Positions 12,641 through 60,988 of a DNA stretch of 64,000 nt are shown here, one piece after another. Source of the DNA: Dyella amyloliquefaciens. Its GTDB lineage: Bacteria > Pseudomonadota > Gammaproteobacteria > Xanthomonadales > Rhodanobacteraceae. The DNA is taken from NCBI RefSeq assembly GCF_004296575.1, contig NZ_SAYT01000003.1:310001-374000 (forward strand), given 5' to 3'. Position numbers and translations under genes: made by a program. Numbering within the stretch: the stretch's first letter is position 1; each line of letters begins with the position of its first letter. The notes below the pieces were generated by a model. That model saw only the letters and a list, made by a program, of their open reading frames with translations. It made no database searches and had not been told where the DNA came from.

Positions 12641-13393
12641 CAAAACTGCTCCACGATGGTCAATGCGCTGGCGACGAAGTGAAACGTCGGCGCGGTCGCA
12701 TGGTTCGCCAGGATCACCGGCATGCGCGCCGGTCGTACGTGTTGACCGCGAGCACTTCACGAAGAAGCGTCAGGCCGCGAGCCTGGCATCAAGCGCAGCG
12801 GCGACCCGCAGCTTCGTGGGTGTGCCGGTCGCCAGCCCACGGGGAGGCTAAAGCAAAAGGGCTTTCGAAAGGCTGTCTGAAACTTCGCTCGAAGGATCGC
12901 GTGGTCGAAACCGTTCATGTTCATGAGGACGCATCAAAGGTGCGCCTATGCGCTATTCAGTGTGGTAGTCAACGCATGCTTTTGCGAAGTGCATCGCATG
13001 ATGGGCGTCTCGCTTTCGTGCGAGGCGATGCAGGTTTTGTGAAGAGACGTGCCGCGAATTCAGCCGCCTAAATCATTTCGCTACGGTTCACTGTGAAGTA
13101 ATAACAGCGTGCAATGATTGCTGAGTACTGAGTGTCTTGCAGTGATGATTGCAAGTCCGACGACAGCAAGGATCGTTGACATCAAGCGATCCACGATGCG
13201 ATGAGCGGGTGTTGCTGAGTCGGATGTTTCGTGCTTCGTAGGCGTGCATTCATCACTGTCGTGTTACTTGGTTTTTGGCAGCTGAAACCGGAAGCCTCAC
13301 CTCGGTGTGGTTTCCGGATCGGACAGGGGGCTGATGAACGGCTGGCGTCGATGTTTGACGCCGGTGGGCCTGAATCCGGGAGTATGCCAATAC
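12641..13393 (+). promoter_or_regulatory. Long gene-free region leading the polysaccharide cluster
   Basis: About 750 bp without a convincing gene; open frames present have no family resemblance and poor codon structure. Base composition drops after about 13070. There are operator-like elements: the palindrome TTCACTGTGAA (13087-13097) and two related symmetric elements, TGCAATGATTGC (13110-13121) and TGCAGTGATGATTGCA (13138-13153). The wzb promoter probably lies between 13080 and 13390. Confidence 0.4.
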
Positions 13394-45836: not shown

Positions 45837-47648
45837 TTAGAACGTGGTCTGGAACGTGAGGTCGATGTAGTTGCGGTCACGCAGCAACGAGGCCAGGCCT
45901 GCGCTGGAGGTGACCACGTCGGCCTGGTTGACCGCAAGCCGACCCACGTAGCCGATGTACTTCAGGTCGAAGCGGTACTTCTGGCGAACGTCCGCGCCGA
46001 CACCGAAGGAGTAGTTGCCCATGCCCTTGTTGCCACCGAAGGTGACCGCGGAGTTGCCGGACAGGCCCATCGTGTAGGTCATCGGTGCGAGCAGGTCCAC
46101 GCCCGGATAGACCTGGAACCAGGTCGGCGTGAAGCTGAGCTGCGTACCCGTGTAGTTCCTGGTCGGCTTGTCGATGCCGGTATAGCCGGGGCTGGTGCCT
46201 TCGAAGGCGTTGGGGTTCTGGGTGACCTTGTCCCAACGGCTCCACACGAACTCGACCACGTAGTTGGCGGTGTCGAAGACGGGCGTCTTCGGCACGACGC
46301 CGGCGAAGTCGGTGACGGCATGCCAGGTATCACCGCGTGCGCCGGCGACATTGCCGTCCGTCGGCATCGTGCTGATCGCGCCCACCACCTTGCCGGCCAG
46401 CGGCGCCGGCAGCAGCTGCACCGGAATGCTCACCAGCGGCATGTTGTGGCGGTAGTTCACCTCCGCGCTGAAGCTGACGCCGAGAATCTGCTTGGCGAAG
46501 CTTGCGCCGTAGATGTCGATGCCGTCGCCGTAAGTGGCCATGTACTGGCCGACGTTGCCAGCCAGGATCTGCGGCACCGAGGCCATCGCCGGGTTGATGT
46601 AGCAGAGGGTCGGGCTAAGCGCCTTGTAACCGAGCGCCTTGCACGCGGCGGCAGGCACGTTGGGTGCCACGGCCGGGGCCAGCATGAACTGCGGCTGGAT
46701 ATCGGAGGTGTTGCGATAGTAGAGGCCGATGGTGGAGTCGATGGCCTCCGGACTCCAGTGCATCGCCACGCCCCAGTCGCCCGTACCCTTCGGGGTGACG
46801 TCCTGGCCGCGCAGCGCGCGCTGGGTCGCGTTGATGTAGATCGACTGGCCGCCCTGCAGCACCGCGTCGTTCGGATCCATGTAGGAACCCGACTCGGGGT
46901 AGTAGACCTGTTCCCAGCCGAGGTAGTACTGGCCTTCGAACGAGAGCGTGGGCGTTGCCTGGATCTGTGCCGATACCTGCGGACGCGGGCGGAACAGTTC
47001 CTTGGCGGTGGCGCCCGGCACGGTGAGCAGCTTGCCGATATCGAGCGGCGACTGGCCGTAGCTCAGCGAGTGGATCGGGTTGAGCAGCGCCTCGCCCCAG
47101 AACAGGTCGTAGCGGCCGGCCTTGGTGTTGACGTTCACGCCATCGATGTCGAAGTTCGCGAAGGCGAAGGCGTCGAGCAGCTGGGCCGACGGGCCCTCGA
47201 AATAGCGCTCGGTGTAGTTGGGCAGGCCCAGCGCGGGCTGGCCATTGACGATGTGGTTGGACGAGCTGACGTGCGTGTTGTCCAGCGAGCTATAGGCGTT
47301 GTCGTACCAGCCGTCGGCGCTGATGCGGAAGCCGTAGTTCTTCTTGTAGACGAAGTCGAACTCGCTGATTACGTCAACGCGGTTCGTGACGATGGCATGG
47401 TTGCCAAAGTTGCGGTCGCCGTCGTCGTTGTTCGGGCTGTTGAGGATCGACTGTTCCTGGGAGTGCGCGCGCTGTCCGAGGTTGTAGCGGACGGTGTTGT
47501 CCCAGCGAATATCGAGGTCGGGATTGCCCGTATTGAATTCGACCGCGTGTGCCGCACCCACGGACCCGAGCGCCATCGCGACAGCGAGTGCCATCAGGCG
47601 GGTGGCCGGTGCGCCGCGGCGTTCGATCTCCCCATCAAACTTCTTCAT
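45837..47648 (-). CDS. DUF1302 family outer-membrane protein
   Basis: A 603-aa exported protein. The signal peptide (ATRLMALAVAMALGSVGAAHA, cleaved before VEFNTG) leads to a repetitive beta-strand-rich sequence with the DUF1302 opening NPDLDIRWDNTVRYNLGQRA and a C-terminal strand ending in Phe (NYIDLTFQTTF), the usual end of an outer-membrane barrel. DUF1302 proteins commonly accompany DUF1329, a YCF48-like protein and an RND permease, and are thought to take part in traffic of hydrophobic compounds; direct biochemical proof is limited. GGAGGAG lies about 8 bases before the ATG at 47648. A C5-N8-G8 element lies 279 bp upstream of the start. Confidence 0.88.
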   Translation of the reverse strand: MKKFDGEIERRGAPATRLMALAVAMALGSVGAAHAVEFNTGNPDLDIRWDNTVRYNLGQRAHSQEQSILNSPNNDDGDRNFGNHAIVTNRVDVISEFDFVYKKNYGFRISADGWYDNAYSSLDNTHVSSSNHIVNGQPALGLPNYTERYFEGPSAQLLDAFAFANFDIDGVNVNTKAGRYDLFWGEALLNPIHSLSYGQSPLDIGKLLTVPGATAKELFRPRPQVSAQIQATPTLSFEGQYYLGWEQVYYPESGSYMDPNDAVLQGGQSIYINATQRALRGQDVTPKGTGDWGVAMHWSPEAIDSTIGLYYRNTSDIQPQFMLAPAVAPNVPAAACKALGYKALSPTLCYINPAMASVPQILAGNVGQYMATYGDGIDIYGASFAKQILGVSFSAEVNYRHNMPLVSIPVQLLPAPLAGKVVGAISTMPTDGNVAGARGDTWHAVTDFAGVVPKTPVFDTANYVVEFVWSRWDKVTQNPNAFEGTSPGYTGIDKPTRNYTGTQLSFTPTWFQVYPGVDLLAPMTYTMGLSGNSAVTFGGNKGMGNYSFGVGADVRQKYRFDLKYIGYVGRLAVNQADVVTSSAGLASLLRDRNYIDLTFQTTF

Positions 47649-48053
47649 GCAACTCTCCTCCCCCATGTGTTGTGCCGTGTCTGTCTTTCCGTTGCACGTC
47701 AGCACGGGTGGCTGGGATATCGCGCACGGAAATGTCTCGCCAGGCCGCCCCATGAAGTTCTCCCAAGCTGCGCGGCGAAACTGTTTCGGGTGGTTGCCAC
47801 CGCCGGATTCGTGCAGTCGTCGGATGCACACCACATCGTGGTTTGCGCGGGGTGGTGATTCCCCTCCGGCGAAGCCTCCGGTGGTGGCTTCTGGTATGGC
47901 CAGATTCAAGCGGGCGACTGCATAAGGCCCCCCCCAGTCCGGTGGGGGCAGGTGCCGTGCATGAATCGCGCAGCGGCGTTGAGACGGAGGCATGCCTTAC
48001 CTCTCGTCTTGCGACGAGGGAGGAATGCGTTTCGTTGTCGATCAACGCACTCG
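47649..48053 (-). promoter_or_regulatory. Upstream region of the DUF1302 gene
   Basis: About 400 bp without a gene. The main feature is the C8-N8-G5 element at 47928-47948. I cannot pick out a convincing -35/-10 pair between the element and the start codon; a long 5' leader or an alternative sigma promoter is possible. Confidence 0.45.
47928..47948 (-). promoter_or_regulatory. C5-N8-G8 element, copy A (upstream of DUF1302)
   Basis: Plus strand: eight C, AGTCCGGT, five G. Read on the minus strand, towards the DUF1302 gene, it is C5-N8-G8, with the G-run 279 bp before the ATG. It shares exact run lengths and spacing with copies B and C. Plus-strand flanks also resemble copy B (TGCCGTG follows both). 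Confidence 0.6.
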
Positions 48054-48746
48054 TCAGGGCGGCAGCGCAGCGAGCATGGCCCTGGCGAGCGTTTCCGGGG
48101 GCAGGGCGCCGGAGAGCGTCTGACGCCTGCCGAGTACGAATCCGGGTACGCCCGAGATCCTTTCGCGGCGGGCTTCGCTCTGCCAGTGTTCCAGTGGCGC
48201 GTCACGCATGGGTGATTCCATGCGCTCCAGGCTTGCCGCACGCGGCATGTCGTAGATCTCGCCGATATCGGCCAACACCTGCATGTCGCCGATGTTCATG
48301 CCACGGATGAAGTACGCCTGGAAAAGCTCGTCGATCAGCAGTGACTGGATCATCGCCCCGCCCACTTGGCCCGCATGCTCGACGAGGCGATGGGCGGCGG
48401 TCGTGTTGGGCATCCATTCGATGCGTTCGAATTCGAATCGAATGCCGTTGGCACTGCCTGCGTCACGAACCTGTTGGCGGCGGGCCTTGACGGCGTCCGC
48501 GCTGCCGAGCCGGTGAAGATAGAACGCTTCGTACGGCTTGCCTTCGAGCGGCATGTCGGGAAGCAGGGGCAGCGATTTCCAACGGACGTCGATATCGACG
48601 TCCGGATAGCCGATCGCCACCAGCTCGGTGGCGCGCTCGAGCTGGCGCTTGCCGATCATGCACCACGGGCAGATCAGGTCGAAGTAGAAGTCGACCGGAA
48701 TGCGCTTGCGCGAGATCGTGGCGGTGACGTCGGCGAGTTCGCTCAC
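48054..48746 (-). CDS. DsbA-family (FrnE-like) oxidoreductase
   Basis: A 230-aa cytosolic thioredoxin-fold protein of the DsbA family. VDFYFDLICPWCMIGKRQLE carries CPWC (C26, C29), and the C-terminal GVPGFVLGRRQTLSGA has the cis-Pro loop. FrnE-type proteins act in polyketide or aromatic metabolism; related 2-hydroxychromene-2-carboxylate isomerases share the fold but usually lack the CxxC, so a redox or glutathione-linked role is preferred. GTG at 48746 is chosen because it overlaps the upstream hydrolase stop (GTGA), indicating coupling; no good ribosome-binding site is needed then. It belongs to the minus-strand catabolic group. Confidence 0.85.
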   Translation of the reverse strand: MSELADVTATISRKRIPVDFYFDLICPWCMIGKRQLERATELVAIGYPDVDIDVRWKSLPLLPDMPLEGKPYEAFYLHRLGSADAVKARRQQVRDAGSANGIRFEFERIEWMPNTTAAHRLVEHAGQVGGAMIQSLLIDELFQAYFIRGMNIGDMQVLADIGEIYDMPRAASLERMESPMRDAPLEHWQSEARRERISGVPGFVLGRRQTLSGALPPETLARAMLAALPP

Positions 48747-49294
48747 AGGAGCGAATCGATCAACGTTTCGGCAGTCGGCCACGGACCGTAACCGGCGGCC
48801 GGATTGAGATGCCCGACGCTACCCAGTTCGATCAGCAGGCTGCCCCAGTCATTGGCGATATCGGCGGCGCGTGACGCGCTACAGAGCGGATCATTGGCGC
48901 TGGACGCAACGATGGAAGGAAACGGCAGCTTCGCGCACGGGATCGGCAGCCAGCCGTGCTCGCGCAGGGTGTCCATGGTCGGGTAGCCCGCGGGCATCGG
49001 CGACTCCAGGTCGGCCGGTGTCGCAAGCAGTGCACCATGGATGGGGCGGTGATGCGTCTGCGCCCAGTGCGCCGTAATCATCACGCCGGCGCTGTGCGCC
49101 ACGAGAATCACCGGGCCGTCGATCGCGGCAAGCGCTTCATCGAGTGCCGCCACGCGGGCAGCGCGGCTCAGCTTGTCGTGTTCCAGCGGAGGCACGGAGC
49201 GTGCCTTGGGAAGCTTGGCCTCGAGCAGGGTCTGCCAGTGTTCCGCAACATGGTCGCGCAAGCCGGGGACCATGAGGATCGTCGGGGTCGTCAC
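48743..49294 (-). CDS. RBBP9/YdeN-type alpha/beta serine hydrolase
   Basis: A 183-aa small serine hydrolase. ILMVPGLRDHVAEHWQ is the oxyanion-side opening, VILVAHSAGVMITAHWA holds the nucleophile Ser (near 67), ASSANDPLCS the acid region and VGHLNPAAGYGPWP the catalytic His, the standard RBBP9/YdeN layout. The substrate is probably a small ester or thioester. GTG at 49294 gives the family length; the alternative longer N-terminus up to 49747 overlaps the transporter gene and has no family match. Stop overlaps the DsbA-family start by four bases. Distance to the MFS gene upstream is 32 bp, so all three likely share a transcript. Confidence 0.85.
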   Translation of the reverse strand: MTTPTILMVPGLRDHVAEHWQTLLEAKLPKARSVPPLEHDKLSRAARVAALDEALAAIDGPVILVAHSAGVMITAHWAQTHHRPIHGALLATPADLESPMPAGYPTMDTLREHGWLPIPCAKLPFPSIVASSANDPLCSASRAADIANDWGSLLIELGSVGHLNPAAGYGPWPTAETLIDSLL

Positions 49295-49326
49295 GAGGTT
49301 TATCCGTCGAATATGGGTGTGGATGG

Positions 49327-50652
49327 TCAGACTTCGGTCGCCAACGCCTGCTGCTGGACGCGTGCGATGTCCTGGCCGTAATGCGCGCGAGCGATCCAGA
49401 ACGTCAGCGCCGCGAACAGCGCCATCAGTGGGATCACCTTGAACGCATCCAGCAATCCGACGCGATCGGCCAGCACGCCGGTCAGCAGCGGTCCGGGCGC
49501 GAGGCCCAGCAGGTTGTTGGCGAGCGTGAGCGTGGCAAAGGCGGTGGCGTGAATCGGCGTGGGCGTCAGATTGGCGACCATCGCGCCCGCCGGGCCGCAG
49601 GTGCCGGCCACGAGGAACATGCCCAGGCCGATGGCGACGAGCTGGTTGAAACCTGGCTTGAGCTGGAAAGCGACGCCGAGAATGATCGCGGTGGTCAGGC
49701 AATAGGCGATGGCCATCGCGAGCTTTCGCGGTGGCGAGTGGCGGCACACTCGGTCGGTGGCCACGCCACAGACCACCATGCCGATCGCGCCGATCAGCAC
49801 GAATACGGCAGCGGTGACGCCGGCCTTGTCAGGCGTCATCGCGTAATAGCGGTTGAGGTAACTCGGCATCCAGGCGATGACCGCAGCCATGATGAACAGC
49901 TGCAGGCCGCTGCCGATATAGGCGCAGATGACCGAGGTGCTGGAAAACAGGCCGGCGAACAGGTTGCGCAGCGACAGGCTGAAGCCCGGGCGGCTGTCGC
50001 GCAGTTCCTTCGCGGCAGCCGAGCTGCCGCGCAACCGACGCTCGGTGACTGTCAGTGCATAGGTCACGACGAGGGCGGCACCGAAGATCGCCATGACGAC
50101 GAACGCCGAGCGCCAGCCGAACTTTGCGGCGAAGACGCCGCCGAGTGCCATGCCGACCACCGAGCCGAACGCGCCGCCGGCCATGAAGGCGCCAGTCAGC
50201 GTGGAACGCAGATAGGGCGGGAAGATGCTGATGATCAATGCGATACCGACGCTGCCGTAAGCGGCCTCGCCGAGTCCGACGAAGAAGCGCGCGGTCAGCA
50301 TCTGGCCGTAGTTGGTGGCGATGCCGCAGGCGAGCGTGGCGACGCTCCATAGCGTTGCCATCAGCAGGATGCTGCGCACGCGCCCCCAGCGATCCGCCAT
50401 GACGGAAAGCGGGAAGGTGAGCACGCCCACCAGCAGCGCAACGATGCCCGAGAGCGAGCCAAGCTGCGTATCCGAAAGACCCCATTCGGCCTTCAGCAGC
50501 GGGAAGACGGCATTGAGCACCTGGCGTGACATGTAGTCCGACAGCAGCAACCCGAAAGTGAGCGCGAACACCAGCCAGGCGTAGACGCGTGGCTTGGTCA
50601 TCGACGTGACCGTGGTGTCCAGTGTGGTTGCCTCGGCGTAGTTCATTCCCAA
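49327..50652 (-). CDS. MFS transporter
   Basis: A 441-aa major facilitator with 12 membrane helices. The loop 2-3 signature is GIVALLVGVLTFPLSVMADRWGRVRS, followed by RFFVGLGEAAYGSVGIALI; the central cytosolic loop is near residues 200-225. It resembles proton-driven importers of organic acids. A TTG start at 50652 is supported by GAGGAG 7 bases upstream; ATG 50646 is two codons in. It follows the BKACE gene by 110 bp that include a hairpin, and precedes the hydrolase gene. Probable importer of the substrate, or exporter of an intermediate, of the surrounding catabolic genes. Confidence 0.9.
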   Translation of the reverse strand: MGMNYAEATTLDTTVTSMTKPRVYAWLVFALTFGLLLSDYMSRQVLNAVFPLLKAEWGLSDTQLGSLSGIVALLVGVLTFPLSVMADRWGRVRSILLMATLWSVATLACGIATNYGQMLTARFFVGLGEAAYGSVGIALIISIFPPYLRSTLTGAFMAGGAFGSVVGMALGGVFAAKFGWRSAFVVMAIFGAALVVTYALTVTERRLRGSSAAAKELRDSRPGFSLSLRNLFAGLFSSTSVICAYIGSGLQLFIMAAVIAWMPSYLNRYYAMTPDKAGVTAAVFVLIGAIGMVVCGVATDRVCRHSPPRKLAMAIAYCLTTAIILGVAFQLKPGFNQLVAIGLGMFLVAGTCGPAGAMVANLTPTPIHATAFATLTLANNLLGLAPGPLLTGVLADRVGLLDAFKVIPLMALFAALTFWIARAHYGQDIARVQQQALATEV

Positions 50653-50721
50653 AGCGGTCTCCTCGCCGGCCTATGCCGGATGTGATGCCGTGACGGCTCG
50701 CGTCACGCTTTGACCGGCAAG

Positions 50722-50744
50722 GCGGGGAGCCGATGGCACCCCGC
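50722..50744 (-). terminator. Hairpin between BKACE and MFS genes
   Basis: GCGGGG (50722-50727) and CCCCGC (50739-50744) with an 11-nt loop, extendable by flanking A/T pairs, 18 bp past the BKACE stop. Weak internal terminator or processing site. Confidence 0.35.
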
Positions 50745-50762
50745 TTTGTCAGCCGTTACGAC

Positions 50763-51821
50763 TCAGGCAGCAAGGTCGGCGAGACCCAGCTTTCCCGGCT
50801 TGCGGTTCGGCGAAAAGCCGTTGGCGGCCAAGGTCTCATCGATGGTGTCGTAGAACACGCCGATCTTCAGGATCTCGCGCGCTTCCTTGCCGTTGGCGAT
50901 CTCGCGGCCGAATTCGCGCGAAATGCGCACCAGCTGTTCGATCTGCTCCACCGTGGTCATCTTGGCGGTACGCGACTGGTTCCACAGGTTGTCTTCGATG
51001 CCGCAGCGGACGTGCAGGCCCATGGCGATGCCCATCATGTTGATGGGGAGCACGTTGCGCATGCTGCTTTCGACGGTCAGCATCGTGCCGTCAGGAATGG
51101 CGCGCACGAAGTTGGCCAGGCTGTAGATGGTGGGCTGGTCCATGCCGCCGCCGATCGCGACCCAGTTGCACACCAGCGGGCCCTTGTAGATGCCGCGGCG
51201 AATCAGACGCTCTACCGTCTCGTAGCTGTTGATGTTGTAGAACTGGAACGCGCTCTGGATGCCGGCCGCGCTCAGGCGCTTGACGTGCTCCTCGATGAAG
51301 CCCGGGCCCGAGGGCACGATCATCTCGCGATAGGCTTCGTAGGTCTGCGGTTCGGCGATAGAGGTGCCGGCGAGGTCCGCCATCTCCATCTGCTCGACGA
51401 TGTTCATCTGGACCGTATTGACGGTGACCGTCACCTGGTCCGGCTTGGGATCGAGTTCGGCCAGCATGTGGCGGGTGTCGTCTTTCAGCCACTTGGCGCT
51501 CGCGCCCTCGGTCTCCGGCGCGAAGGAGATCGAGCCGCCGACCTGGATGACCATGTCCGGCACCGCTTTGCGTACGCCGGCGATCAACTCATTGAACATG
51601 GAGAGGCGCTTGGAGCCCTTGCCGTCCAGCTCGCGCACGTGAAGGTGCAGCACGCTGGCGCCGGCGTTGTAGCAGTCGACCGCCTTCTGGATCTGCTCTT
51701 CCATAGTGACCGGGATGTCTTCCGGGAAATCCGAAGGAATCCACTCGGGGCCATAAGGCGCAGCGGTGATGACCAGCTTGTCCTGGTACTCGGGAAACAG
51801 CGAACCGTCGAGGAAATTCAT
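50763..51821 (-). CDS. BKACE-family beta-keto acid cleavage enzyme (DUF849)
   Basis: A 352-aa TIM-barrel zinc enzyme of the beta-keto acid cleavage family, first known from 3-keto-5-aminohexanoate cleavage (Kce). LVITAAPYG at the N-terminus, the zinc pair HLHVRE (H59, H61) and VIQVGGSISF are characteristic. The family condenses a beta-keto acid with acetyl-CoA to give acetoacetate and a new CoA thioester. The specific keto acid here is not predictable by eye. It follows the TauD-like gene by 37 bp, consistent with oxidation upstream and C-C cleavage by this enzyme in one pathway. Confidence 0.9.
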   Translation of the reverse strand: MNFLDGSLFPEYQDKLVITAAPYGPEWIPSDFPEDIPVTMEEQIQKAVDCYNAGASVLHLHVRELDGKGSKRLSMFNELIAGVRKAVPDMVIQVGGSISFAPETEGASAKWLKDDTRHMLAELDPKPDQVTVTVNTVQMNIVEQMEMADLAGTSIAEPQTYEAYREMIVPSGPGFIEEHVKRLSAAGIQSAFQFYNINSYETVERLIRRGIYKGPLVCNWVAIGGGMDQPTIYSLANFVRAIPDGTMLTVESSMRNVLPINMMGIAMGLHVRCGIEDNLWNQSRTAKMTTVEQIEQLVRISREFGREIANGKEAREILKIGVFYDTIDETLAANGFSPNRKPGKLGLADLAA

Positions 51822-51858
51822 GGCTTTGTCCTGTTGCTCTGTGGAGTAGGGATTCGGT

Positions 51859-52707
51859 TCAGAACGTGGCGTCGCCGACGATGCCAGCGCGCTCCATCTT
51901 TCGATGGCAGGGCGGGTAGTCCATGACCGCGTAGTGCTGGGTGGAACGGTTGTCCCAGATGGCGATGCTGTTTTTGCTCCAGCGCCAACGCACCTGGTAT
52001 TCGGGGATATAGGCCTGGCTGATCAGGTAGTTCAGCAGGAGGTTCGCGCCAGGGTTGGCGTCCTGGCCGTAGCACACGTTTTCCTTCGTGTGGTAATTGG
52101 TGAAATGGGTGGTGAAGGCGTTGACGAACAGCACCTTCTCACCCGTTTCCGGATGCGTGCGCACCACGGGATGTTCGGCGTCCGGGAACTGCGCCCTCAG
52201 TGCATGGCGGCGCTCGATCGGCATGGCGGCGCCGAACGAGGCTTCGATGCTGTGGCGCGCATACAGGCCGGCAATCTGCTTCTTGGTATGCGCGGGCAGC
52301 ATTTCGTATGCGGCCACCATGTTGACCCACATGGTGTCGCCGCCGACCGGCGGGCATTCCACGCAGCGAAGCACGCAGCCCATTGGCGGAATCTGGCGCC
52401 AGGTGGCGTCGGTGTGCCAGGCGTTTTCGTAGCGGTCCATCGGCGCGTCGGGCGTCTTGTAGATCTGCACCAGTCCCGGCGCATCCGGATGACTGGGTGC
52501 GACCGGATGGTCTTCCAGCTCGCCGAAGCGGCGCGCAAACGCCACGTGATCCTGTCGGCTGATGTCCTGGTCGCGCAAAAACAACACGCGATGCTTGAGC
52601 AACGCGGCCTTGATCTCGCCGAACAGGTCGTCGTTGTGGACGGCATCCGCAAGATTGACGTCGAACAGTTCGGCGCCGATGTTGCAGGTGAGTTGCTCGA
52701 TACGCAT
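51859..52707 (-). CDS. TauD/TfdA-family Fe(II)/2-oxoglutarate dioxygenase
   Basis: A 282-aa alpha-ketoglutarate-dependent dioxygenase. The iron-binding facial triad is visible as H98-x-D100 in ENAWHTDATWRQIPP and a distal His in WDNRSTQHYAVMDY (near 259); the 2-oxoglutarate-binding Arg lies in the C-terminal PPCHRKMERAGI. TauD/TfdA enzymes hydroxylate sulfonates, aryloxyacetates or other small acids, releasing the leaving group. The substrate is unknown; the neighbours (acyl-CoA ligase, BKACE) point to a carboxylic acid. ATG at 52707; it follows the quinone oxidoreductase by 9 bp. Confidence 0.92.
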   Translation of the reverse strand: MRIEQLTCNIGAELFDVNLADAVHNDDLFGEIKAALLKHRVLFLRDQDISRQDHVAFARRFGELEDHPVAPSHPDAPGLVQIYKTPDAPMDRYENAWHTDATWRQIPPMGCVLRCVECPPVGGDTMWVNMVAAYEMLPAHTKKQIAGLYARHSIEASFGAAMPIERRHALRAQFPDAEHPVVRTHPETGEKVLFVNAFTTHFTNYHTKENVCYGQDANPGANLLLNYLISQAYIPEYQVRWRWSKNSIAIWDNRSTQHYAVMDYPPCHRKMERAGIVGDATF

Positions 52708-52716
52708 GGGGTTGCC

Positions 52717-53697
52717 TCAGATGACGAAGATCGACGAGCCGGTGGTCTTGCGCGACTCGAGGTCGCGGTGTGCCTGCACGGCGTCTTCGAGCGCGTAGCG
52801 CTGGTTGATCTCGATCTTGATGCGGCCGGACGACACGTGGTCGAACAGCCTTTGGGCCAGCTCGGCCTTCTCGGCCGGGTCGGCGATGTAGTCGGCCAGG
52901 GCGGGACGCGTCATGTACAGCGAACCCTTCATGGCGAGGATCTGCGGGTCGAACGGCGGGATGGTGCCCGAGGCGGTGCCGACGCAAACCATCAGTCCGC
53001 GGCGGCGCAGCGAATCGAGCGAGGCCATGAACGTGCTCTTGCCCACCGAGTCGAACACGACGGACACGCCCTTGCCATCGGTGAGTTCGCGTGCGCGGGC
53101 CGCGATGTTCTCGTGGCTGTAGTTGATGACTTCGTCGCAGCCATGCGCACGCGCGACGGCGGCCTTCTCGTCGGTCGACACCGTGCCGATCACGCGCAGG
53201 CCAAGCAGCTTGGCCCACTGCGACACGATCAGGCCGACGCCGCCGGCGGCGGCATGCAGCAGGATGGTTTCGCCGGCCTGGAACGGGTAGATGCGGCGCA
53301 TGAGGTAGGCCGCCGTGAGGCCACGCATGGTCATGGCCGCCGCCGTCTCGCAGCTGATGCCTTCCGGCAGGCGGATCAGCGGCGCAGCCGGTACCAGGCG
53401 GGCGGTGCTGTAGGCACCCAGCGTGTTGATGAAGCCGGTGTAGGTCACGCGGTCGCCGACGGCGACGTTGGAGACGTCCGGACCAATGGCCTCGACGACG
53501 CCGGCCGCTTCGACACCGATGCCGTTGGGCAGCGGAATAGGATAGGTGCCGTTGCGGAAATACGTGTCGGCGAAATTGAGCCCCACGGCCTGGTGGCGCA
53601 GACGAACCTCGCCCGGGCCGGGCTCGCCGACCTGGATCGTTTCGTAGCGCAGCACGTCAGGGCTGCCGGCTTCATAAAAACGGATGGCGTGTTCCAA
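52717..53697 (-). CDS. NADPH:quinone oxidoreductase (zinc-free MDR family)
   Basis: A 326-aa medium-chain dehydrogenase/reductase without the structural zinc cysteines. GVEAAGVVEAIGPDVSNVAVGDRV, TAAYLMRRIYPFQAGETILLHAAAGGVG (Rossmann motif AAAGGVG) and DSVGKSTFMASLDSLRRRG are typical of QorA-type quinone reductases. It would reduce quinones or enoyl compounds with NADPH in the cytosol. It is the second gene of the minus-strand operon that begins with the UspA-hemerythrin gene, 69 bp downstream of it. Confidence 0.92.
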   Translation of the reverse strand: MEHAIRFYEAGSPDVLRYETIQVGEPGPGEVRLRHQAVGLNFADTYFRNGTYPIPLPNGIGVEAAGVVEAIGPDVSNVAVGDRVTYTGFINTLGAYSTARLVPAAPLIRLPEGISCETAAAMTMRGLTAAYLMRRIYPFQAGETILLHAAAGGVGLIVSQWAKLLGLRVIGTVSTDEKAAVARAHGCDEVINYSHENIAARARELTDGKGVSVVFDSVGKSTFMASLDSLRRRGLMVCVGTASGTIPPFDPQILAMKGSLYMTRPALADYIADPAEKAELAQRLFDHVSSGRIKIEINQRYALEDAVQAHRDLESRKTTGSSIFVI

Positions 53698-53766
53698 AAC
53701 GGGACTCCTTGGTTCAAAGCGCCGGCGCAGGGCGCCGGGTATTGCTGGTGATGGCGATGTCCGGCT

Positions 53767-54762
53767 TCATGTCGATGCAAGCTGGGCAATGCGCGTAAAC
53801 AGTTGCTGGTAGGCGACCTGCGCCTCGCCATTGGCACGAGGACTGCCAGGGCGCGTGACGGTCGCCTGGATTTCGTTCCAGTCGGCTTCGGAGAGGTAGC
53901 GCTGGGCCGCGGGAAGGACGACGCCTTCGATGCGCCCCATGTGCTCCCACGTGAAATGCGCGTAGGTTTCGACCGCATCGTGAAGCTGCTCGAGGGTCGC
54001 CTGGCCTATCGCGTAGTGTTCGACTTCGTCGCCCAGGGCTTCGGCCATGGCGCGCTCGCGCTCGTGCTGGCGCTCCAGTTCGTCCAGTTCGGCATGGACG
54101 ACCGCGGTGCGGCCGCGCAACACGAAGAACAGGTAGTCGTGCTCGCTCGGCCGGTGCAGCGCCAGGGGAAACTTGACGACGTAATGGGCCATGGCGCGCA
54201 TCAGCTCGGTAGCGACCGTCGGGTGCTGCGGGTGGGCGTGGTTCAGCAGGTGCAGCCACGCGTGCAGCACGGCGGCCAGCGCGCGATGCTCGCGGCGGAT
54301 GATGTCCACCATCGGATGAACCTGCCCACCGTCCTGCACTGAGGAGACGAGCACGGGCATCTCCCCGGCCGCCAGGACGCGGAGGGTCTGAGACCCCAGC
54401 GTCTCGCCACGGATCGCCTTGCGATCGTGCGGAGCCATGACGATGAGATCGCAACCACTCTTGCGCGCCGTGTCCAGGATGACCTCGTGCGGTGCGTTGC
54501 CCTCAAGGACAACGGAGTCGCAGGGGACACCGAGCGCGCGGGCGGCGGCTTCGGCCTTGGTCAGGAGTGCATGGGTGCGCTCGCGATGCGTGGCCCGGTA
54601 CCCGTTCGGCATGCCATCGGTGTCCGGCGGGACGGCGTCGTGATCGTGCACATGCACGAAGCTGACCCGTGCCCCCAGCGTGCGCGCGAGATTCACGGCC
54701 TTGCTGACCGTTTCGATCGAGAGATCGCTGTCATCGAGCGGAACGAGGAGGTGACGGTACAT
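53767..54762 (-). CDS. UspA-hemerythrin fusion protein
   Basis: A 331-aa two-domain protein. Residues 1-145 form a universal stress protein domain (MYRHLLVPLDDSDLSIETVSKAV; DLIVMAPHDRKAIRGETLGSQ; AAGEMPVLVSS). Residues 155-310 form a hemerythrin/HHE domain with the expected iron ligands spread over four helices (DIIRREHRALAAVLHAWLHLL, HRPSEHDYLFF, HAELDELERQHERE, AHFTWEHMGRIEGVVLPAA). Bacterial HHE proteins sense or buffer oxygen, NO or iron; a Usp fusion suggests a redox-sensing or protective role. ATG at 54762 has GGAG 7 bases upstream. First gene of the dioxygenase operon, with a C5-N8-G8 element 271 bp upstream. Confidence 0.88.
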   Translation of the reverse strand: MYRHLLVPLDDSDLSIETVSKAVNLARTLGARVSFVHVHDHDAVPPDTDGMPNGYRATHRERTHALLTKAEAAARALGVPCDSVVLEGNAPHEVILDTARKSGCDLIVMAPHDRKAIRGETLGSQTLRVLAAGEMPVLVSSVQDGGQVHPMVDIIRREHRALAAVLHAWLHLLNHAHPQHPTVATELMRAMAHYVVKFPLALHRPSEHDYLFFVLRGRTAVVHAELDELERQHERERAMAEALGDEVEHYAIGQATLEQLHDAVETYAHFTWEHMGRIEGVVLPAAQRYLSEADWNEIQATVTRPGSPRANGEAQVAYQQLFTRIAQLAST

Positions 54763-55212
54763 GCGGACTCCAGACAGATGTGCGACCCGTGACGCCGGGC
54801 GGCAAACCCACCGCACCTTGCGATGGCCGCCGGAACATGTGTCCTTGCGTAGGTGGCGAGGAGTCCACCGTCGCTGCTTCTTGAGCAATGAGCCTCCGCG
54901 TACGATGGCTCACCTCCGGGACTCCACCCCTGTCGAGCTGGCTTTTCGCCAACTCGACCTCAGCCGCCAAGCGGCTGGAACGCCGGACCTGTTTTGTCAC
55001 GGGACCAAGGCTAGGTACCGCTGGCCGCAGAAGCCCCCCCCGGCATGGAGGGGGAGTGCCGTGAAGGGTGGGTGATGAGTGGTCAGGCCCGATCCGGCGT
55101 GACTACAATGATTTTGAGACGCACGTCGTTGACCGGTATCGCGGGGCGTGTTTCGCCCGGGGTGTCGCATCCAACAACGGGAAAATTGCGTCAGCCTACC
55201 TGGATCAGTTTG
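54763..55212. promoter_or_regulatory. Divergent UspA-hemerythrin/MalT-type regulator region
   Basis: About 450 bp without a gene between divergent transcription units. It holds element B (55034-55054) and, for the plus strand, a possible -10 TACAAT (55104-55109) with a weak -35 at 55081. If that promoter is real, the regulator's upstream in-frame starts at 55045 and 55075 are not used. Confidence 0.45.
55034..55054 (-). promoter_or_regulatory. C5-N8-G8 element, copy B (divergent regulator region)
   Basis: Plus strand: eight C, GGCATGGA, five G, then AG. On the minus strand it reads C5-N8-G8 towards the UspA-hemerythrin operon, 271 bp before its ATG; on the plus strand it is 158 bp before the MalT-type start. 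GGGGGAG also resembles part of a MalT box. Confidence 0.6.
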
Positions 55213-57897
55213 ATGGCACTTACGCCCGGCGGGGCAGCGCCCGCCATCGCCGAACTTGTTCTCAAGACCACGCCGCCCCGGGCGCCGCGCTATCTGTTGG
55301 TGCGGCCACGACTCGGCCTGGACGACGAGCAGTTCCGCGAGCGCTCCTTCATCCTCGTGCAGGCGCCCGCGGGCTTCGGCAAGACTTCGCTGTTGGCGCA
55401 GTGGCGGCACGAGTACCTGGCGCGTGGCTGGGCCGTAGCGTGGATCTCGGCCGATGGAAGCCCCGACCCCCAGCGCATGCTGCACAGCCTAGTGCTGGCG
55501 GTACGCATGGGGTGCGGCCGCCCCCAGTTCGGCGCGACCTTGCTGGAAAGTGCCTCGGTGGCGGTGGGCGAGTACGAAGGCGTCACCGAGTGGCTGAGCG
55601 AAGTAGCCCAGGCGTCGCTGTCGATGGTGTTGATGATCGACGAGGCCGAGCGCCTGCACCCGACCAGCCAGGCCGCCCTCAACTACCTGCTGCACAACGC
55701 ACCGCCGAACCTTCGTGTGGTCGCGGCGGGGCGCGGCGAGCTGGATCCCATGGTGGCGGACCTGCGTGCGTACGGCCTATGCACCTCCGTGGGCGTGGAA
55801 ACCCTGCGTTTTACGCTGGAGGAAACCATCGCCCTCGTGCGCAACCGCATCGGCAGCAAGGCCGATGCGGATACCTGTGCTCGGCTCCATGAGATGACCG
55901 AGGGCTGGCCGCTGGGCCTGCAGCTCGTGCTTGCCGCGATGGAGCGGGGCAGCGATCTGCGCAGCGTGGTGGGCCCGCATTCCCCGGATTCGCGCAATCA
56001 GCTGGTAGAGGCCCTCACGGCCAAGCTGGCGCCGGAGGACGTGACCTTTCTGACCCGCGTTGCGGTGGTGGACCAGCTGCATCCGGATCTTTGCATTGCC
56101 CTCACCGGCGACGAAGAGGCCCCGCAGCGTCTTGCGCGCCTGGCGCGCGAGACGCCGATCTTCGTGGTCGGCGAGGACTCGGACTGGTACCGCCTGCACC
56201 TGCTCGCCTCCGATGCGCTGCGCCTGCGCCTGGCGGAGTTGCCCGAGCAGGAAAGGGCGGACCTGCATGGTCGTGCACAGGACTGGCTGGCGGCGCACGG
56301 CATGCTCACCCAGGCCGCGCGCCATGCGCGCGAGGCTGGCAGGGAGGGGGTTGCCGTCGATCTCGCGCAGAAGGGCCTGTACGAAGCCGTGATCCAGGGC
56401 CACATGGGCACGATGCGCGAGTGGCTCGACGTGCTGCCTGAGTCGGTGCTCGATCAGCATCCGCAATTACGCCTGGCGGCCGCATGGTCGCTGGCGGTGA
56501 GCGAGCGCCATGAAGAAGCCGAGCGCATGGTGGGCCTCATCCTTTCGCGCCCTGACGTCAATGTTGCATTGCGTTACGAGTGCGTGTTGATAGCGAGTGG
56601 AGCGGCCTACTACTCGGATGACCCCGATCGTTGTGTCGGCATGCTGGCGCCGTGGAAAGATTCCGAGTCGGGTGGCGAGCCCAGGTTCCATCGGATGCAC
56701 GTCAACCGGCTGGCGATGATGGCCTTGCTGCAGGGCGATCCCGCGGAGGCCCGGCGCCTGTGCGGTGCGTTGGGCATGGACGCGCCAAGAGAGTCCGACT
56801 ATGCCTCGCGCTGGCGTGAATTCATCACCGGCCTGAGTTTCGTGTGGGAAGGGCAGATCCTGCTCGCGGAGGAAGGACTGCGCGGGGCGCTGGTCTCCGT
56901 CGATGCGAAATTCGGCCGTCGACACCCATTGTCCTGCATGTTCGCCGCCTTGCTTGCCTCGATTGCCTATGAGCGGGATCGACTGGATGAGGCGGTGGCA
57001 CTGCTGGCTAACCGGCTGGATGTGCTTGAGCGCGTGGGTGCGCCTGAGGCGATCCTGGTTGGCTATCGCACCGTGACGCGGGTGGCCGCGGCGCAGGGCG
57101 AAGAACACCGGGCGCTCGATATGCTGGAGGCGTCGTATGCCATCGGCGTGGCGCGACGGCTGCCGCGCCTGTGCATCGCCAGCCTCGGCGAGCAGGTGCG
57201 CATGCACGCAAGCCGCTTCCGTCGAGAAACCTGTAGTGCCTTGATCACCAGGATCGACGAGCTGGTGGCCAGCGAAAGCCCTCGCCGTGGGCCGCTATGG
57301 CGTCGCAATGTGGAGCTGGTGAGCGCCATGGCCCATGCCTATGCCGCCATGGCATCGCAGGACTGGCCGGGCGTGCTCGAATCCGTATCGCGGGCCGCAC
57401 CGATGGCCGAGCAGACCAGGCTGGGGCGCTTCCGCATCGAGTGCATGGCGCTGCGCGCCTTTGCGCTGGACCGCAACGGCGAGGACGGCCGCGCGCTGAT
57501 GGTCGAGGCCATGAGCCTGGCCAAGACCTATGGCTTCATGCGCGTCTTCACCGATACCCATCCGGTGCTTACCGACTGGGCGTATCGCGTGATGGCGGAG
57601 ACGAGCGGTGAGGCGGCGGGCACGGTTTCTCCGTCACGCGTGATTCCGCCACCCGTGGATCAGCGCCAGGGCGGCCCCCGCGTGATGCCGAGCATGGTGC
57701 TCACGCCGAAAGAGCGCGAGGTGCTGGAATACCTCGCGCGCAATCTGTCGAACAAGGAAATCGCCCAGGCCATGGCGGTGGGCGAGGCCACGGTCAAATG
57801 GCATCTCAAGAACCTGTTCGGCAAGCTCGGCGTGGGTACCCGCCGGCATGTGGTTCATCGAGCGCAACTGCTCGGTCTCATCCAGGGCCTGGAATAG
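55213..57897 (+). CDS. MalT/LuxR-family large ATP-dependent transcriptional activator
   Basis: About 894 aa from ATG 55213. LLVRPRLGLDDEQ and the P-loop VQAPAGFGKTSLLAQWR (near 50) open a STAND-type NTPase domain (LSMVLMIDEAERLHPTSQ as Walker B, EGWPLGLQL arm motif), followed by an alpha-helical TPR-like sensor region (about 330-800) and a C-terminal LuxR helix-turn-helix (LTPKEREVLEYLARNLSNKEIAQ). This architecture (MalT, AlkS) activates catabolic operons on binding an inducer and ATP. Starts at 55045 or 55075 would add Ser/Thr/Arg-rich residues with no family match. It lies at the centre of the locus whose promoters carry C5-N8-G8 elements and is the obvious regulator candidate. Confidence 0.9.
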   Translation: MALTPGGAAPAIAELVLKTTPPRAPRYLLVRPRLGLDDEQFRERSFILVQAPAGFGKTSLLAQWRHEYLARGWAVAWISADGSPDPQRMLHSLVLAVRMGCGRPQFGATLLESASVAVGEYEGVTEWLSEVAQASLSMVLMIDEAERLHPTSQAALNYLLHNAPPNLRVVAAGRGELDPMVADLRAYGLCTSVGVETLRFTLEETIALVRNRIGSKADADTCARLHEMTEGWPLGLQLVLAAMERGSDLRSVVGPHSPDSRNQLVEALTAKLAPEDVTFLTRVAVVDQLHPDLCIALTGDEEAPQRLARLARETPIFVVGEDSDWYRLHLLASDALRLRLAELPEQERADLHGRAQDWLAAHGMLTQAARHAREAGREGVAVDLAQKGLYEAVIQGHMGTMREWLDVLPESVLDQHPQLRLAAAWSLAVSERHEEAERMVGLILSRPDVNVALRYECVLIASGAAYYSDDPDRCVGMLAPWKDSESGGEPRFHRMHVNRLAMMALLQGDPAEARRLCGALGMDAPRESDYASRWREFITGLSFVWEGQILLAEEGLRGALVSVDAKFGRRHPLSCMFAALLASIAYERDRLDEAVALLANRLDVLERVGAPEAILVGYRTVTRVAAAQGEEHRALDMLEASYAIGVARRLPRLCIASLGEQVRMHASRFRRETCSALITRIDELVASESPRRGPLWRRNVELVSAMAHAYAAMASQDWPGVLESVSRAAPMAEQTRLGRFRIECMALRAFALDRNGEDGRALMVEAMSLAKTYGFMRVFTDTHPVLTDWAYRVMAETSGEAAGTVSPSRVIPPPVDQRQGGPRVMPSMVLTPKEREVLEYLARNLSNKEIAQAMAVGEATVKWHLKNLFGKLGVGTRRHVVHRAQLLGLIQGLE

Positions 57898-58251
57898 CCC
57901 GGCCAACGGGCGCGAGACCGCTCGCGCCGCTTCACGGACGTGAAGATCCGGCCGAGGCCGGATAGCCACCCTTGGTTACCTATTTGCCCCTCCCCCGACG
58001 TTTTGGGGGGGGTATGGTTTGCGCCGCTCCGAACAATGGGTATCGACCGCTTTCGCGTGTCCATGGTCGCGAGCCCATGGCGCGGATGGCGGCAAAAGAG
58101 AGTGAGGCAGCGTAAAGCGCAGCGGTGCGACGCACCGCGATGCCGGCGGAATGACGCCGGCTGCGGCGAGACGAGGCCTGTGCTTACGCCATGGGGTGGT
58201 GACGAAAAGCCACCCCCGAAATTCGAATCACACATCGTGAGGAGCATGCGC
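57898..58251 (+). promoter_or_regulatory. Upstream region of the DUF1329 operon
   Basis: About 350 bp with no gene. Element C lies at 57992-58012. Several short GC-rich inverted repeats are present near 58120-58170; no convincing -35/-10 pair could be chosen. Confidence 0.45.
57992..58012 (+). promoter_or_regulatory. C5-N8-G8 element, copy C (upstream of DUF1329)
   Basis: Plus strand: five C, GACGTTTT, eight G, then TATGG, ending 239 bp before the DUF1329 ATG. Its reverse complement is C8-N8-G5 followed by AG, as in copy B. Confidence 0.6.
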
Positions 58252-59601
58252 ATGCAATTCCGCAAAGCCCTGATAGCTGGGGCCGTAGCCGTCCTGATCT
58301 CCGGCGTTGGCCACGCCAGCGTTTCGTCCGACGAGGCCAAGAAGCTCGGCACCACGCTTACCGGCGTCGGAGCAGAGACGGCCGGCAGCGCTGACGGCGC
58401 GATCCCCGCCTACAGCGGCGGCCTCACCACTGCGCCCTCCGGATTCAAGCCTGGCAGCGGTGTTCGCCCGGATCCGTTCACTGGCGAAAAGCCGGTGCTC
58501 ACGATCGATGCGAAGAACATGGACAAGTACTCGGCCAACCTGACCGAGGGCACCAAGGCCCTGATGAAGAAGTATCCGGGCTACCACATCGACGTCTATC
58601 CGACGCACCGTTCCGCGGCATTCCCGAAGTTCGTGGTCGAGAACACCGCCAAGTGCGCGACGGAAGCGAAGACGGATGCCGGCGGCCGCTCGATGAGTGG
58701 TTGCCACGCAGGCTTCCCGTTCCCGATCCCGCAGACCGGCTTCGAGGCGATGTGGAACCACCTGGTCCGCTTCAACGGCGTGGCCTATGAAACCAAGTAT
58801 CGCAACTACAACGTCGATGCCTCCGGTCACGCGACGCTATCCACCGAAGGCAACGCGGTCGAGGAATATCCCTACTGGGATACCAACAAGCCGAACGCCG
58901 ATGTGTTCTGGGAGCAGCGCCTGACCTACACCGGTCCGGCACGTCGTGCGGGCGAAGCCATGCAGATCGTCGACCCGCTCAACTACAGCAGCCAGGGCCG
59001 CAAGGCATGGCAGTACCTGCCGGGCCAGCGTCGCGTGAAGGTAGCGCCGGATCTCGCCTTCGATACGCCCAACCCGGGTTCGGGCGGCGCGTCCACCTTC
59101 GACGACGTGTTCCTGTTCAACGGTTCGATGGAACGCTACGACTTCAAGCTCGTGGGCAAGAAGGAAATGTACGTTCCGTACAACGACTACAAGATGGCCT
59201 ACGAGTCGAAGGCGGACGGGCTGCTGACGCCGAGCTTCCTCAACCCAGCCGACGTGCGTTGGGAAATGCATCGCGTGTGGGTGGTCGAGGCCACGCTGGC
59301 TGCCGGCAAGCGCCACATCTACAGCAAGCGCACGTTCTATCTCGACGAGGACAGCTGGGCGGCAGTGGCTTCCGATGCCTATGACGCGCGCGGCCAGTTG
59401 TTCCGTGCGGGCTTTGCCTACATCACCCCGGCGTACGACATGCCGGCACCGGTGGCCGACCTGCATGGCATCTACGACCTGATCGCGGGCTCGTATTCGC
59501 TGACGGGCTTCTCCGGTGAAACCGGTGGCGTCCGTTACGTGAAGCCGATGTCGGAGCGCGACTGGGCGCCGGAATCGCTCGCCGGTTCGGGAGTTCGCTG
59601 A
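58252..59601 (+). CDS. DUF1329 family periplasmic/outer-membrane-associated protein
   Basis: A 449-aa exported protein. The signal peptide MQFRKALIAGAVAVLISGVGHA is followed by the DUF1329 sequence VSSDEAKKLGTTLTGVGAE and DGAIPAYSGGLT, with late motifs VRWEMHRVWVVEATLA and GKRHIYSKRTFYLDEDSW. The fold is related to lipoprotein-carrier (LolB-like) beta structures, so a role in moving hydrophobic molecules across the periplasm is plausible but unproven. ATG at 58252 is preferred, with GAGGAG 7 bases upstream; ATG 58246 is too close. First gene of a four-part transport unit, here separated from its usual DUF1302 partner by about 10 kb. Confidence 0.88.
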   Translation: MQFRKALIAGAVAVLISGVGHASVSSDEAKKLGTTLTGVGAETAGSADGAIPAYSGGLTTAPSGFKPGSGVRPDPFTGEKPVLTIDAKNMDKYSANLTEGTKALMKKYPGYHIDVYPTHRSAAFPKFVVENTAKCATEAKTDAGGRSMSGCHAGFPFPIPQTGFEAMWNHLVRFNGVAYETKYRNYNVDASGHATLSTEGNAVEEYPYWDTNKPNADVFWEQRLTYTGPARRAGEAMQIVDPLNYSSQGRKAWQYLPGQRRVKVAPDLAFDTPNPGSGGASTFDDVFLFNGSMERYDFKLVGKKEMYVPYNDYKMAYESKADGLLTPSFLNPADVRWEMHRVWVVEATLAAGKRHIYSKRTFYLDEDSWAAVASDAYDARGQLFRAGFAYITPAYDMPAPVADLHGIYDLIAGSYSLTGFSGETGGVRYVKPMSERDWAPESLAGSGVR

Positions 59602-59898
59602 TCGGCCGTCAGGCACGGTCTTGAGCATTGTCGCGAGGCGGGAGGCATCCGCTTCGCGACTCACTCGCATGGCAATGGCGGTGGTGAGGCGAATGCCGCA
59701 ACACCGCGGTGACGAAGGACGCCTCTCGGGGGAGGGCTCGCGCACGCCGTCATCCACATGGGTAGCGCCCCACCGCCATTTGCCACGCACTTTGGTTGTC
59801 GGCCTTCCTCCGGCCCTAGCAAGCTTCGACACCGCCGGTTCGCCGGCCGATTGCGAAGACACGGGAATGGAGCAGGCCTTGGATTGTTGGGGCACCTG

Positions 59899-60966
59899 AT
59901 GTTTACGCCATCCATTCGCCGCGCACTGGTAGCGCTTGCACTCGCGCTTCCCTCCGTATCGGTGGCGGGTTTCGCCGATGTGCTGGATACGCCATCCAGC
60001 ACGAGTGCTCTCGCTTCAAAGAGCCTGCTCAATGGCCTGGCGGTAGCGGGCCATCGCGTGATCGCGGTGGGTCAGCGCGGTCATGTCGTCTACTCCGATG
60101 ACAGCGGTACGACCTGGCAGCAGGCGAAAGTGCCGGTGTCTTCCGATCTGGTGGCCGTGAGCTTCCCCACGCCTCAGCAGGGTTGGGCGGTAGGCCACGA
60201 TGGCGTCGTTCTGCATACCGCCGATGGCGGCGCCAGCTGGTCCATCCAGCTCGATGGGCGGCGCGCGGGTGCGCTGTTGCAGCAGCAGCTGCAGGCCAAG
60301 GCATCCAGGGGCGAGCTTGGCAGCCAGGACGATGCAGGCAAGCTGGTGGATGAGGTGGGCCGCATCGCCGCGCAGGGTGCCGAGAATCCTTTCCTCGACG
60401 TGTGGTTCGCCGATGCCCGTCACGGCTTCATCGTGGGCGCATTCAATCTCATCTTCGAGACCACGGACGGCGGCCAGACATGGACGACGTGGTTTGACCG
60501 CACCGAAAACCCGCAGCGCCTCCACCTGTATGCCGTACGCGGCATCGGCACGGATGTCTATATCACCGGCGAGCAGGGCCTCGTGCTCAAGCTTGACCGC
60601 GAAGCGGGCCGTTTCAAGGCGGTGGACACGCCTTACAAGGGCACCTATTTCGGCGTGGTGGGCGACAGCGATGCCGTCGTTGTCTACGGACTGCGCGGCA
60701 ACGCCTATCGCAGTGCCGATGGCGGCGCGCATTGGACGCAGGTCGATACCGGCGTGCAGGAAGGCATCACCGGCGGTGCGAGCTTCGGCGCGCACGGCCT
60801 TGCACTCGTGAGCCAGGCCGGCACCGTGCTGGTCAGCCGCGACAACGGCGAACATTTCGTTACCCATCGACCGGCCAAGCCGGCACCGGCATCGGCAGTG
60901 GCCGTGTCCGGCGACGTGATCGTGACGGCCGGCGCACTTGGCGTGAATGCCAAGGCGCTGCACTGA
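59899..60966 (+). CDS. YCF48-like beta-propeller protein
   Basis: A 355-aa exported protein. After a signal peptide (IRRALVALALALPSVSVAGFA) there are at least five YCF48/BNR-type blades, each with a turn like the Asp-box: VVYSDDSGTTWQ, VLHTADGGASWS, IFETTDGGQTWT, AYRSADGGAHWT and VLVSRDNGEHF. YCF48 was named for photosystem II assembly, but in non-phototrophs such proteins travel with DUF1329 and RND genes, presumably as a periplasmic scaffold for the transporter. ATG at 59899 is set by the signal peptide. It follows DUF1329 by 297 bp and precedes the RND gene by 22 bp. Confidence 0.88.
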   Translation: MFTPSIRRALVALALALPSVSVAGFADVLDTPSSTSALASKSLLNGLAVAGHRVIAVGQRGHVVYSDDSGTTWQQAKVPVSSDLVAVSFPTPQQGWAVGHDGVVLHTADGGASWSIQLDGRRAGALLQQQLQAKASRGELGSQDDAGKLVDEVGRIAAQGAENPFLDVWFADARHGFIVGAFNLIFETTDGGQTWTTWFDRTENPQRLHLYAVRGIGTDVYITGEQGLVLKLDREAGRFKAVDTPYKGTYFGVVGDSDAVVVYGLRGNAYRSADGGAHWTQVDTGVQEGITGGASFGAHGLALVSQAGTVLVSRDNGEHFVTHRPAKPAPASAVAVSGDVIVTAGALGVNAKALH

Positions 60967-60988
60967 AGCTGGCACGAGGAGACACCGC

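Follow-up and report, generated by a model that had tools for sequence, protein, structure and literature searches.

Gene content of the locus

The window, that is, the whole stretch of 64,000 nucleotides that was analyzed, harbors a gene for an 894-aa LAL (MalT-type) LuxR regulator at 55213..57897 on the plus strand, which is the predicted reader of the operators described below. LAL regulators were defined by a length of about 900 aa and the combination of an NTPase domain, a MalT-like TPR region, and a LuxR HTH. The protein contains an N-terminal NTPase domain (AAA_22), a MalT-like TPR region (TPR_MalT), and a C-terminal LuxR HTH (GerE), all above the Pfam cut-offs, and it matches the MalT structure 8bob (E 4e-23). 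Its score of 222 bits falls below the cut-off of 537 for the NCBIfam MalT equivalog NF003420, indicating that it is not MalT proper, the maltose regulator. A sigma-70-like promoter (TGGTCA-18-TACAAT, 55080..55109, plus strand) was identified in front of this gene by a promoter scan, and its TACAAT stretch is conserved in congeners. It was the only promoter-like site in 47500-58400, where shuffled sequences gave a mean of 1.9.

Three transcription units surround or adjoin the regulator gene as predicted targets. The DUF1302 gene (45837..47648, minus strand; PF06980, E 2.6e-107) encodes an outer-membrane barrel according to a prediction for a relative in the available text of PMC10866462. On the same strand, a UspA-hemerythrin gene (53767..54762, Pfam) is the first of a predicted operon that continues from 53697 down to 48054 with Pfam matches to QOR (a zinc-type dehydrogenase), TauD, BKACE, MFS, hydrolase-like, and DsbA-like proteins, its extent being deduced from gene direction and order. 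The DUF1329 gene (58252..59601, plus strand; PF07044, E 9e-141) is the sole one of its family in the genome and is followed on the plus strand by a BNR/YCF48-like gene (59758-60966) and an RND exporter gene (60947-63433), both assigned by NCBIfam. The BKACE and TauD-family genes adjoin each other (window 50763-52707), and in many relatives they remain linked to the regulator. Taken with the MFS gene, they suggest that a keto- or hydroxy-acid is degraded; that the substrate is carnitine-like or a sulfate ester is no more than a guess. Predicted leaders of about 200-250 nt lie between the inferred transcription starts and the start codons of the DUF1302 (47649-47901), UspA-hemerythrin (54763-55007), and DUF1329 (58038-58251) genes.

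Inverted repeats upstream of the predicted targets

Three exact matches to CCCCC-N8-GGGGGGGG were identified in the window, as the earlier note had claimed with the same positions and strands. Copy A (CCCCCACCGGACTGGGGGGGG, 47928-47948, minus strand) is located 5' of the DUF1302 gene, copy B (CCCCCTCCATGCCGGGGGGGG, 55034-55054, minus strand) between the UspA-hemerythrin and regulator genes, and copy C (CCCCCGACGTTTTGGGGGGGG, 57992-58012, plus strand) 5' of the DUF1329 gene. In 100 dinucleotide shuffles of the window, no match was obtained (mean 0.00, largest 0). In the whole genome (4,834,900 bases, 17 contigs), the C5-N8-G8 pattern occurs exactly three times, all inside about 10 kb, and the pattern read backwards has no match in the same 4,834,900 bases. 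Regarding the question raised earlier of whether many unrelated genomic hits exist, the exact form is thus restricted to this locus. A genome scan with up to two mismatches yielded 143 matches (78 + 65) vs 49 (30 + 19) for the reversed pattern; it is enriched, yet too loose, and was rejected as a definition of the regulon.

All three copies are intergenic, with the G-run facing the following gene, and the end of the G-run lies 279 nt (DUF1302), 271 nt (UspA-hemerythrin), and 239 nt (DUF1329) from the start codon, in agreement with the like orientation and the 239-279 bp given in the earlier note. The N8 spacers are unlike among the copies. A better description of the element is the inverted repeat CCCCCnnC-N5-GGGGGGGG, 21 bp long, with a -10-like hexamer 19-20 nt further on. 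The hexamers predicted from position and letters are GAATCT for the DUF1302 promoter (47902..47907, minus strand, 20 nt past the G-run), TAGCCT for the UspA-hemerythrin operon (55008..55013, minus strand, 20 nt), and AACAAT for the DUF1329 promoter (58032..58037, plus strand, 19 nt). Strict TANNNT is found at copy B only, with A and C lacking it.

Conservation among congeners and distant relatives

Among 19 sampled genomes of the same genus, eight contained an orthologue of the regulator (79-92% identity), and the gene cluster was kept in all eight, with the DsbA-like match absent in G011 and the other cluster genes kept there. In the nine genomes consisting of the window genome and these congeners, 25 of 27 expected sites were exact: copies B and C in nine of nine each, and copy A in seven of nine, having a C4 form one base longer in G008 and G013. 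The run columns invariant in the nine-genome alignments numbered 11/13 (A), 13/13 (B), and 13/13 (C), against 46/359, 73/359, and 68/359 of the other upstream columns, respectively. The run columns are therefore far more conserved than their surroundings, which upholds the earlier claim that the spacers differ while the runs are conserved and answers the question of conservation in orthologous upstream regions. The congener data alone do not single out the regulator, because the cluster and the orthologue come and go together. A C5-N8-G7 match was present in four of the 11 congeners without an orthologue (G002, G016, G017, and G018); none of the 12 cluster proteins matched the stretches around it in G002, G017, and G018, and the match in G016 is a long C/G run. 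As a separate observation, the RND gene of G004 (L052, 813-3270) gave two overlapping match pieces in different frames, likely reflecting a frameshift or sequencing error.

More distant relatives of the regulator were collected by scanning named genomes with the regulator alignment, and the best 80 of 522 loci (42-92% identity) were analyzed. These 80 were pre-selected by peptide patterns, including the HTH pattern T[VI]KWHLKN, and contain many near relatives; five appear to be the congener genomes themselves (L073/G008, L074/G004, L076/G013, L077/G011, and L094/G009). They span Beta- and Gammaproteobacteria, including Dyella, a Rhodanobacter MAG, Rhodocyclaceae, Burkholderia, Paraburkholderia, Caballeronia, Trinickia, Cupriavidus, Thiomonas, Ramlibacter, and Pseudomonas. 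C-run/G-run repeats were found 106 times in the 80 loci vs five times in reversed order, and 79 vs four times within 700 bp of the regulator; a repeat within this distance was present in 52/80 loci vs 4/80 for the reversed order. Many Caballeronia loci had no pure runs and contained CCCCTCTC-N5-GGGAGGGG or -GAGAGGGG at like places instead. In 70/80 loci, the general 21-bp form CCCCYCYC-N5-GRGRGGGG, with up to two mismatches of 16, was found no more than 400 bp from the regulator, compared with 6/80 for the reversed form and 0-8/80 in 20 mononucleotide shuffles. A spacer of 5 bp was best (70/80), and spacers of 3 bp (66/80) and 4 bp (65/80) scored close to it because the runs match in several registers. 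Five loci (L081, L092, L124, L139, and L140) had no site near the regulator at up to three mismatches; one of them, L140, has C7-N7-G7 some 700 bp downstream.

As negative controls, we used the regions flanking 12 less closely related LAL matches (26-38% identity), and none contained the motif at up to two mismatches within 500 bp, as measured from match ends that are partly not true gene ends and with partial matches (L016), matches near contig ends (L069 and L070), and one internal stop (L066) among them. Seven of these controls came from a class-wide search of 369 genomes with two candidates scored in each, which gave seven matches besides the window in five genomes (26-30% identity), and the other five were weaker matches of the congener search. 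The predicted operator type is, on this comparative evidence, widespread in Beta- and Gammaproteobacteria together with the regulator subfamily.

Promoter geometry and genes behind the sites

The geometry was analyzed at 111 sites in 70 loci, taking one best site per flank by motif score alone and ignoring the -10 region. For the upstream sites, TANNNT lay on the UspA-hemerythrin side at 19-21 nt in 58/59 cases (51 at exactly 20), the spacing class to which the hexamer of copy B belongs, vs 2/59 on the regulator side; other 3-nt windows on the UspA-hemerythrin side gave an average of 0.7 and at most 7. For sites downstream of the regulator, TANNNT occurred at 19-21 nt towards the next gene in 24/52 vs 1/52 the opposite way, so that 28/52 lack the strict hexamer. 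The looser NANNNT at 19-20 nt, as at copy C, was present in 41/52 vs 1/52 the opposite way; on the regulator side of the upstream sites, NANNNT also peaks elsewhere (26/59 in one other window). With the -10 hexamer at the observed spacing, the operator centre would lie near -43 and a separate -35 hexamer would be absent; the position of the start is deduced from the -10 hexamer. The sites thus predict a -35-less promoter with an operator centred near -43, and the spacing agrees with an operator position over -35.

A composite search for C5-N11-G5-N19..21-TANNNT returned 20 rows representing 19 distinct places in 14/19 genomes, and one match for the reversed pattern. This form replaced a stricter composite, CCCCNNNCNNNNNGRGRGGGG-N18..20-TANNNT, which was rejected with only five matches in 5/19 genomes. 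Fourteen of the 19 places lie beside LAL, DUF1302, TauD, or UspA-hemerythrin genes, including one next to a second LAL gene in Pseudomonas sp. ML96. The other five (L159, L160, L169, L170, and L172) are not beside cluster genes; two of them are in the genome of the window, and L159 lies on the contig of a regulator locus. By-eye reading of the genes behind 12 places identified porins, acyl-CoA synthetases, TauD, thiolase-like, and UspA-hemerythrin proteins, among others. The earlier note had asked whether hits are confined to promoters of DUF1302/DUF1329-type genes; the targets proved wider, including porins, acyl-CoA synthetases, and TauD. The targets vary between taxa, and the regulator is the constant partner.

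The locus of Thiomonas sp. FB-6 (L137) has three near-perfect CCCCCTCC-type palindromes (12666-12685, 14425-14444, and 20745-20765) preceding acyl-CoA-synthetase-like, porin-like, and TauD-like genes, and thereby appears to provide another clear case of a local regulon. In Pseudomonas sp. ML96 (L155), an operator-plus-hexamer module is located just behind this second, distant LAL gene, which has the HTH STTKWHLKN; other LAL branches may therefore use the module too.

Covariation of the recognition helix and the operator

The residue before TVKWHLKN varies among the regulators. With Gly at this position, operator base +/-6 was A in 64/66 half-sites; with Glu, Ala, or Val, it was A in 2/152 and T in 13, the rest being G, in a count that leaves out four half-sites of a regulator with an unread residue and uses a site-picking motif that admits A and G equally at +/-6. 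In a tree of the first 800 residues, built by a quick method with the HTH left out and having some long branches, the residue changed two times and the base three times, with one independent pair of changes on well-supported branches. The covariation of the recognition-helix residue with operator base +/-6 is therefore suggestive and comes from few evolutionary events, which amount to no statistical proof. Separate operators of one genome that differ together are expected from a shared protein reader.

Tentatively, and with rather less than an even chance of being right, we propose that this LAL subfamily reads oligo(dG).oligo(dC) half-sites partly by the shape of the G-tract instead of base by base, with the residue before TVKWHLKN (Glu/Ala vs Gly) setting position +/-6 (G or T vs A). 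If true, the operator and the -35-less promoter would be joined in a single, nearly invariant unit of about 47 bp, and the residue would provide a compact, rewritable recognition switch for LAL activators.

Comparison with known systems

In the available text of PMC7567727, the MalT operator of Actinoplanes sp. SE50/110 is described as TCATCC-N5-GGATGA overlapping the -35 region, with its 3' end 34.4 +/- 1.0 nt from the mapped starts. The elements of the window resemble the operator reported there in being an inverted repeat with a 5-bp spacer at a predicted position over -35, and in having a LAL regulator, here the predicted reader, encoded in the same gene region as a local multi-operon regulon. 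When the two are aligned on their centres, the matching end here falls within the G-run, 2 nt from its edge; the -10 hexamer follows after 22 nt, and the predicted start is about 34-35 nt away. Unlike the GGATGA half-sites in that account of Actinoplanes, those here are G-runs (GRGRGGGG generally); the bacteria and target genes are also other ones, and the starts were mapped there and are predicted here.

The MalT box of E. coli and Klebsiella is quoted in the same text as GGGGA(T/G)GAGG, with its 5' end at -34.5 to -35.5 overlapping -35, and such boxes are arranged as direct repeats in the portion of PMC6099782 that was available. These boxes share with our elements a G-rich half-site and a LAL reader (predicted here), whereas direct repeats there stand against one inverted repeat here, and the core GGA(T/G)GA is not in the window copies, whose half-sites are G-runs, nor in the GRGRGGGG form of relatives. 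The earlier remark that no regulator with such a half-site design had been described consequently needs amendment in view of PMC7567727, as far as its available text goes: the MalT precedent shares the N5-centred geometry and the predicted position of our elements and differs from them in its letters. No description of a C-run/G-run operator was found in the titles and abstract openings of the papers retrieved from the open-licence literature. On this comparison, the predicted operator represents the MalT type in a new sequence variant, and no new principle is involved.

The genes behind operators A and C also have described counterparts. As given in the available part of PMC10866462, the DUF1302 and DUF1329 proteins of P. 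putida belong with PP_2018 and PP_2019 to a proposed transport system needed on Tween 20 (genes PP_0765, PP_0766, PP_2018, and PP_2019), and the corresponding part of PMC6394551 presents AmeA/AmeB of Castellaniella as DUF1302/DUF1329 proteins of monoterpene metabolism. The same families, namely a predicted barrel, a periplasmic protein, a BNR-like protein, and an RND transporter, lie behind operators A and C. The available text of these two papers describes no LAL regulator or operator for the systems.

Interpretation

The sites, their geometry, their conservation, and their association with the regulator subfamily are read directly from the sequences. The C5-N8-G8 elements are very probably class-II operators of the LAL activator encoded at 55213-57897, activating genes for uptake and catabolism. 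Comparative genomics strongly supports the inference of the earlier note, that the neighboring MalT-type activator would bind these sites, through the subfamily association, the nearly fixed -10 spacing, and the 0/12 distant LAL flanks with the motif.

Association is not binding, and since copy B also precedes the regulator gene, the regulator could itself be among the targets. The elements might serve as operators for some other DNA-binding protein whose gene lies elsewhere, the LAL gene being a mere neighbor or co-target. We consider this unlikely, since the regulator stays as partner while other genes near the sites change, the site geometry is of the MalT type, and the recognition-helix residue of the regulator varies in step with the operators on either side of its gene. 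An RNA structure was among the alternatives considered in the earlier note. In such a reading, C5 and G8 would pair in the transcript as a hairpin or intrinsic terminator, acting either in a leader or where the preceding gene ends (3' end). The hairpin folds of all three copies reach about -20 kcal/mol (z-scores -1.17, -1.32, and -2.20), copies A and C each follow the end of a gene in the same orientation, and C has a terminator-like score. Against this, the scan found one terminator-like site vs 6.2 in shuffles, and an Rfam search of the predicted leaders and elements matched no family. The genes on either side of copy B are divergent, as are those flanking its counterparts in relatives, and, with the regulator having its own sigma-70-like promoter, copy B of the window is placed between two divergent predicted promoters and their -10 hexamers and so would be part of neither transcript. 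An RNA structure would also leave the nearly constant distance to a -10-like hexamer unexplained, and we regard it as very improbable.

A dispersed palindromic repeat, a slippage-prone homopolymer run, or non-B DNA, none involving a regulator, appears more improbable still. Palindromes of the CCCCCTGC-NN-GCAGGGGG type elsewhere in the genome and in relatives partly match the pattern, whereas the element itself has only three copies in the genome with unlike spacers, its position is conserved across two classes, and the reversed-order controls are near zero. An intramolecular quadruplex needs four G tracts, and each element has one G-run per strand. The CCCCCTGC-NN-GCAGGGGG palindrome recurs at G000 contig C1:1043332-1043493 (L062:9333-9494), where two copies about 140 bp apart lie just behind a peptidase-like gene, and in L056, L057 (G021), L059, and L060 (G018). 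It resembles a dispersed repeat or an element of the terminator type, and the palindromes of this genome and G021, seen in part, were set aside as a different element.

For operators read by the LAL activator, we infer binding and activation, together with the oligomeric state, start sites, inducer, and substrate, as follows. Two LuxR-type HTH domains would bind two outward-facing G-rich half-sites 5 bp apart (GnnGGGGG in the window and GRGRGGGG in general). The operator would be centred near -43 in place of a -35 element, with the -10 hexamer starting 19-20 nt past the G-run, and transcription would be activator-dependent (class II) because the operator replaces the -35 element. Once an inducer is sensed, the DUF1302 gene, the UspA-hemerythrin/QOR/TauD/BKACE/MFS operon, and the DUF1329/BNR/RND genes would be switched on together, and these may serve the entry, handling, and breakdown of a probably hydrophobic organic acid or ester.

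These results would provide a searchable operator-promoter module for one LAL activator subfamily in Beta- and Gammaproteobacteria, and would tie DUF1302/DUF1329/RND systems and neighboring catabolic operons to a specific regulator gene. In addition, they offer a testable residue-to-base correspondence for LAL activators, whose DNA code is described for few members in the portions of the literature available to us.
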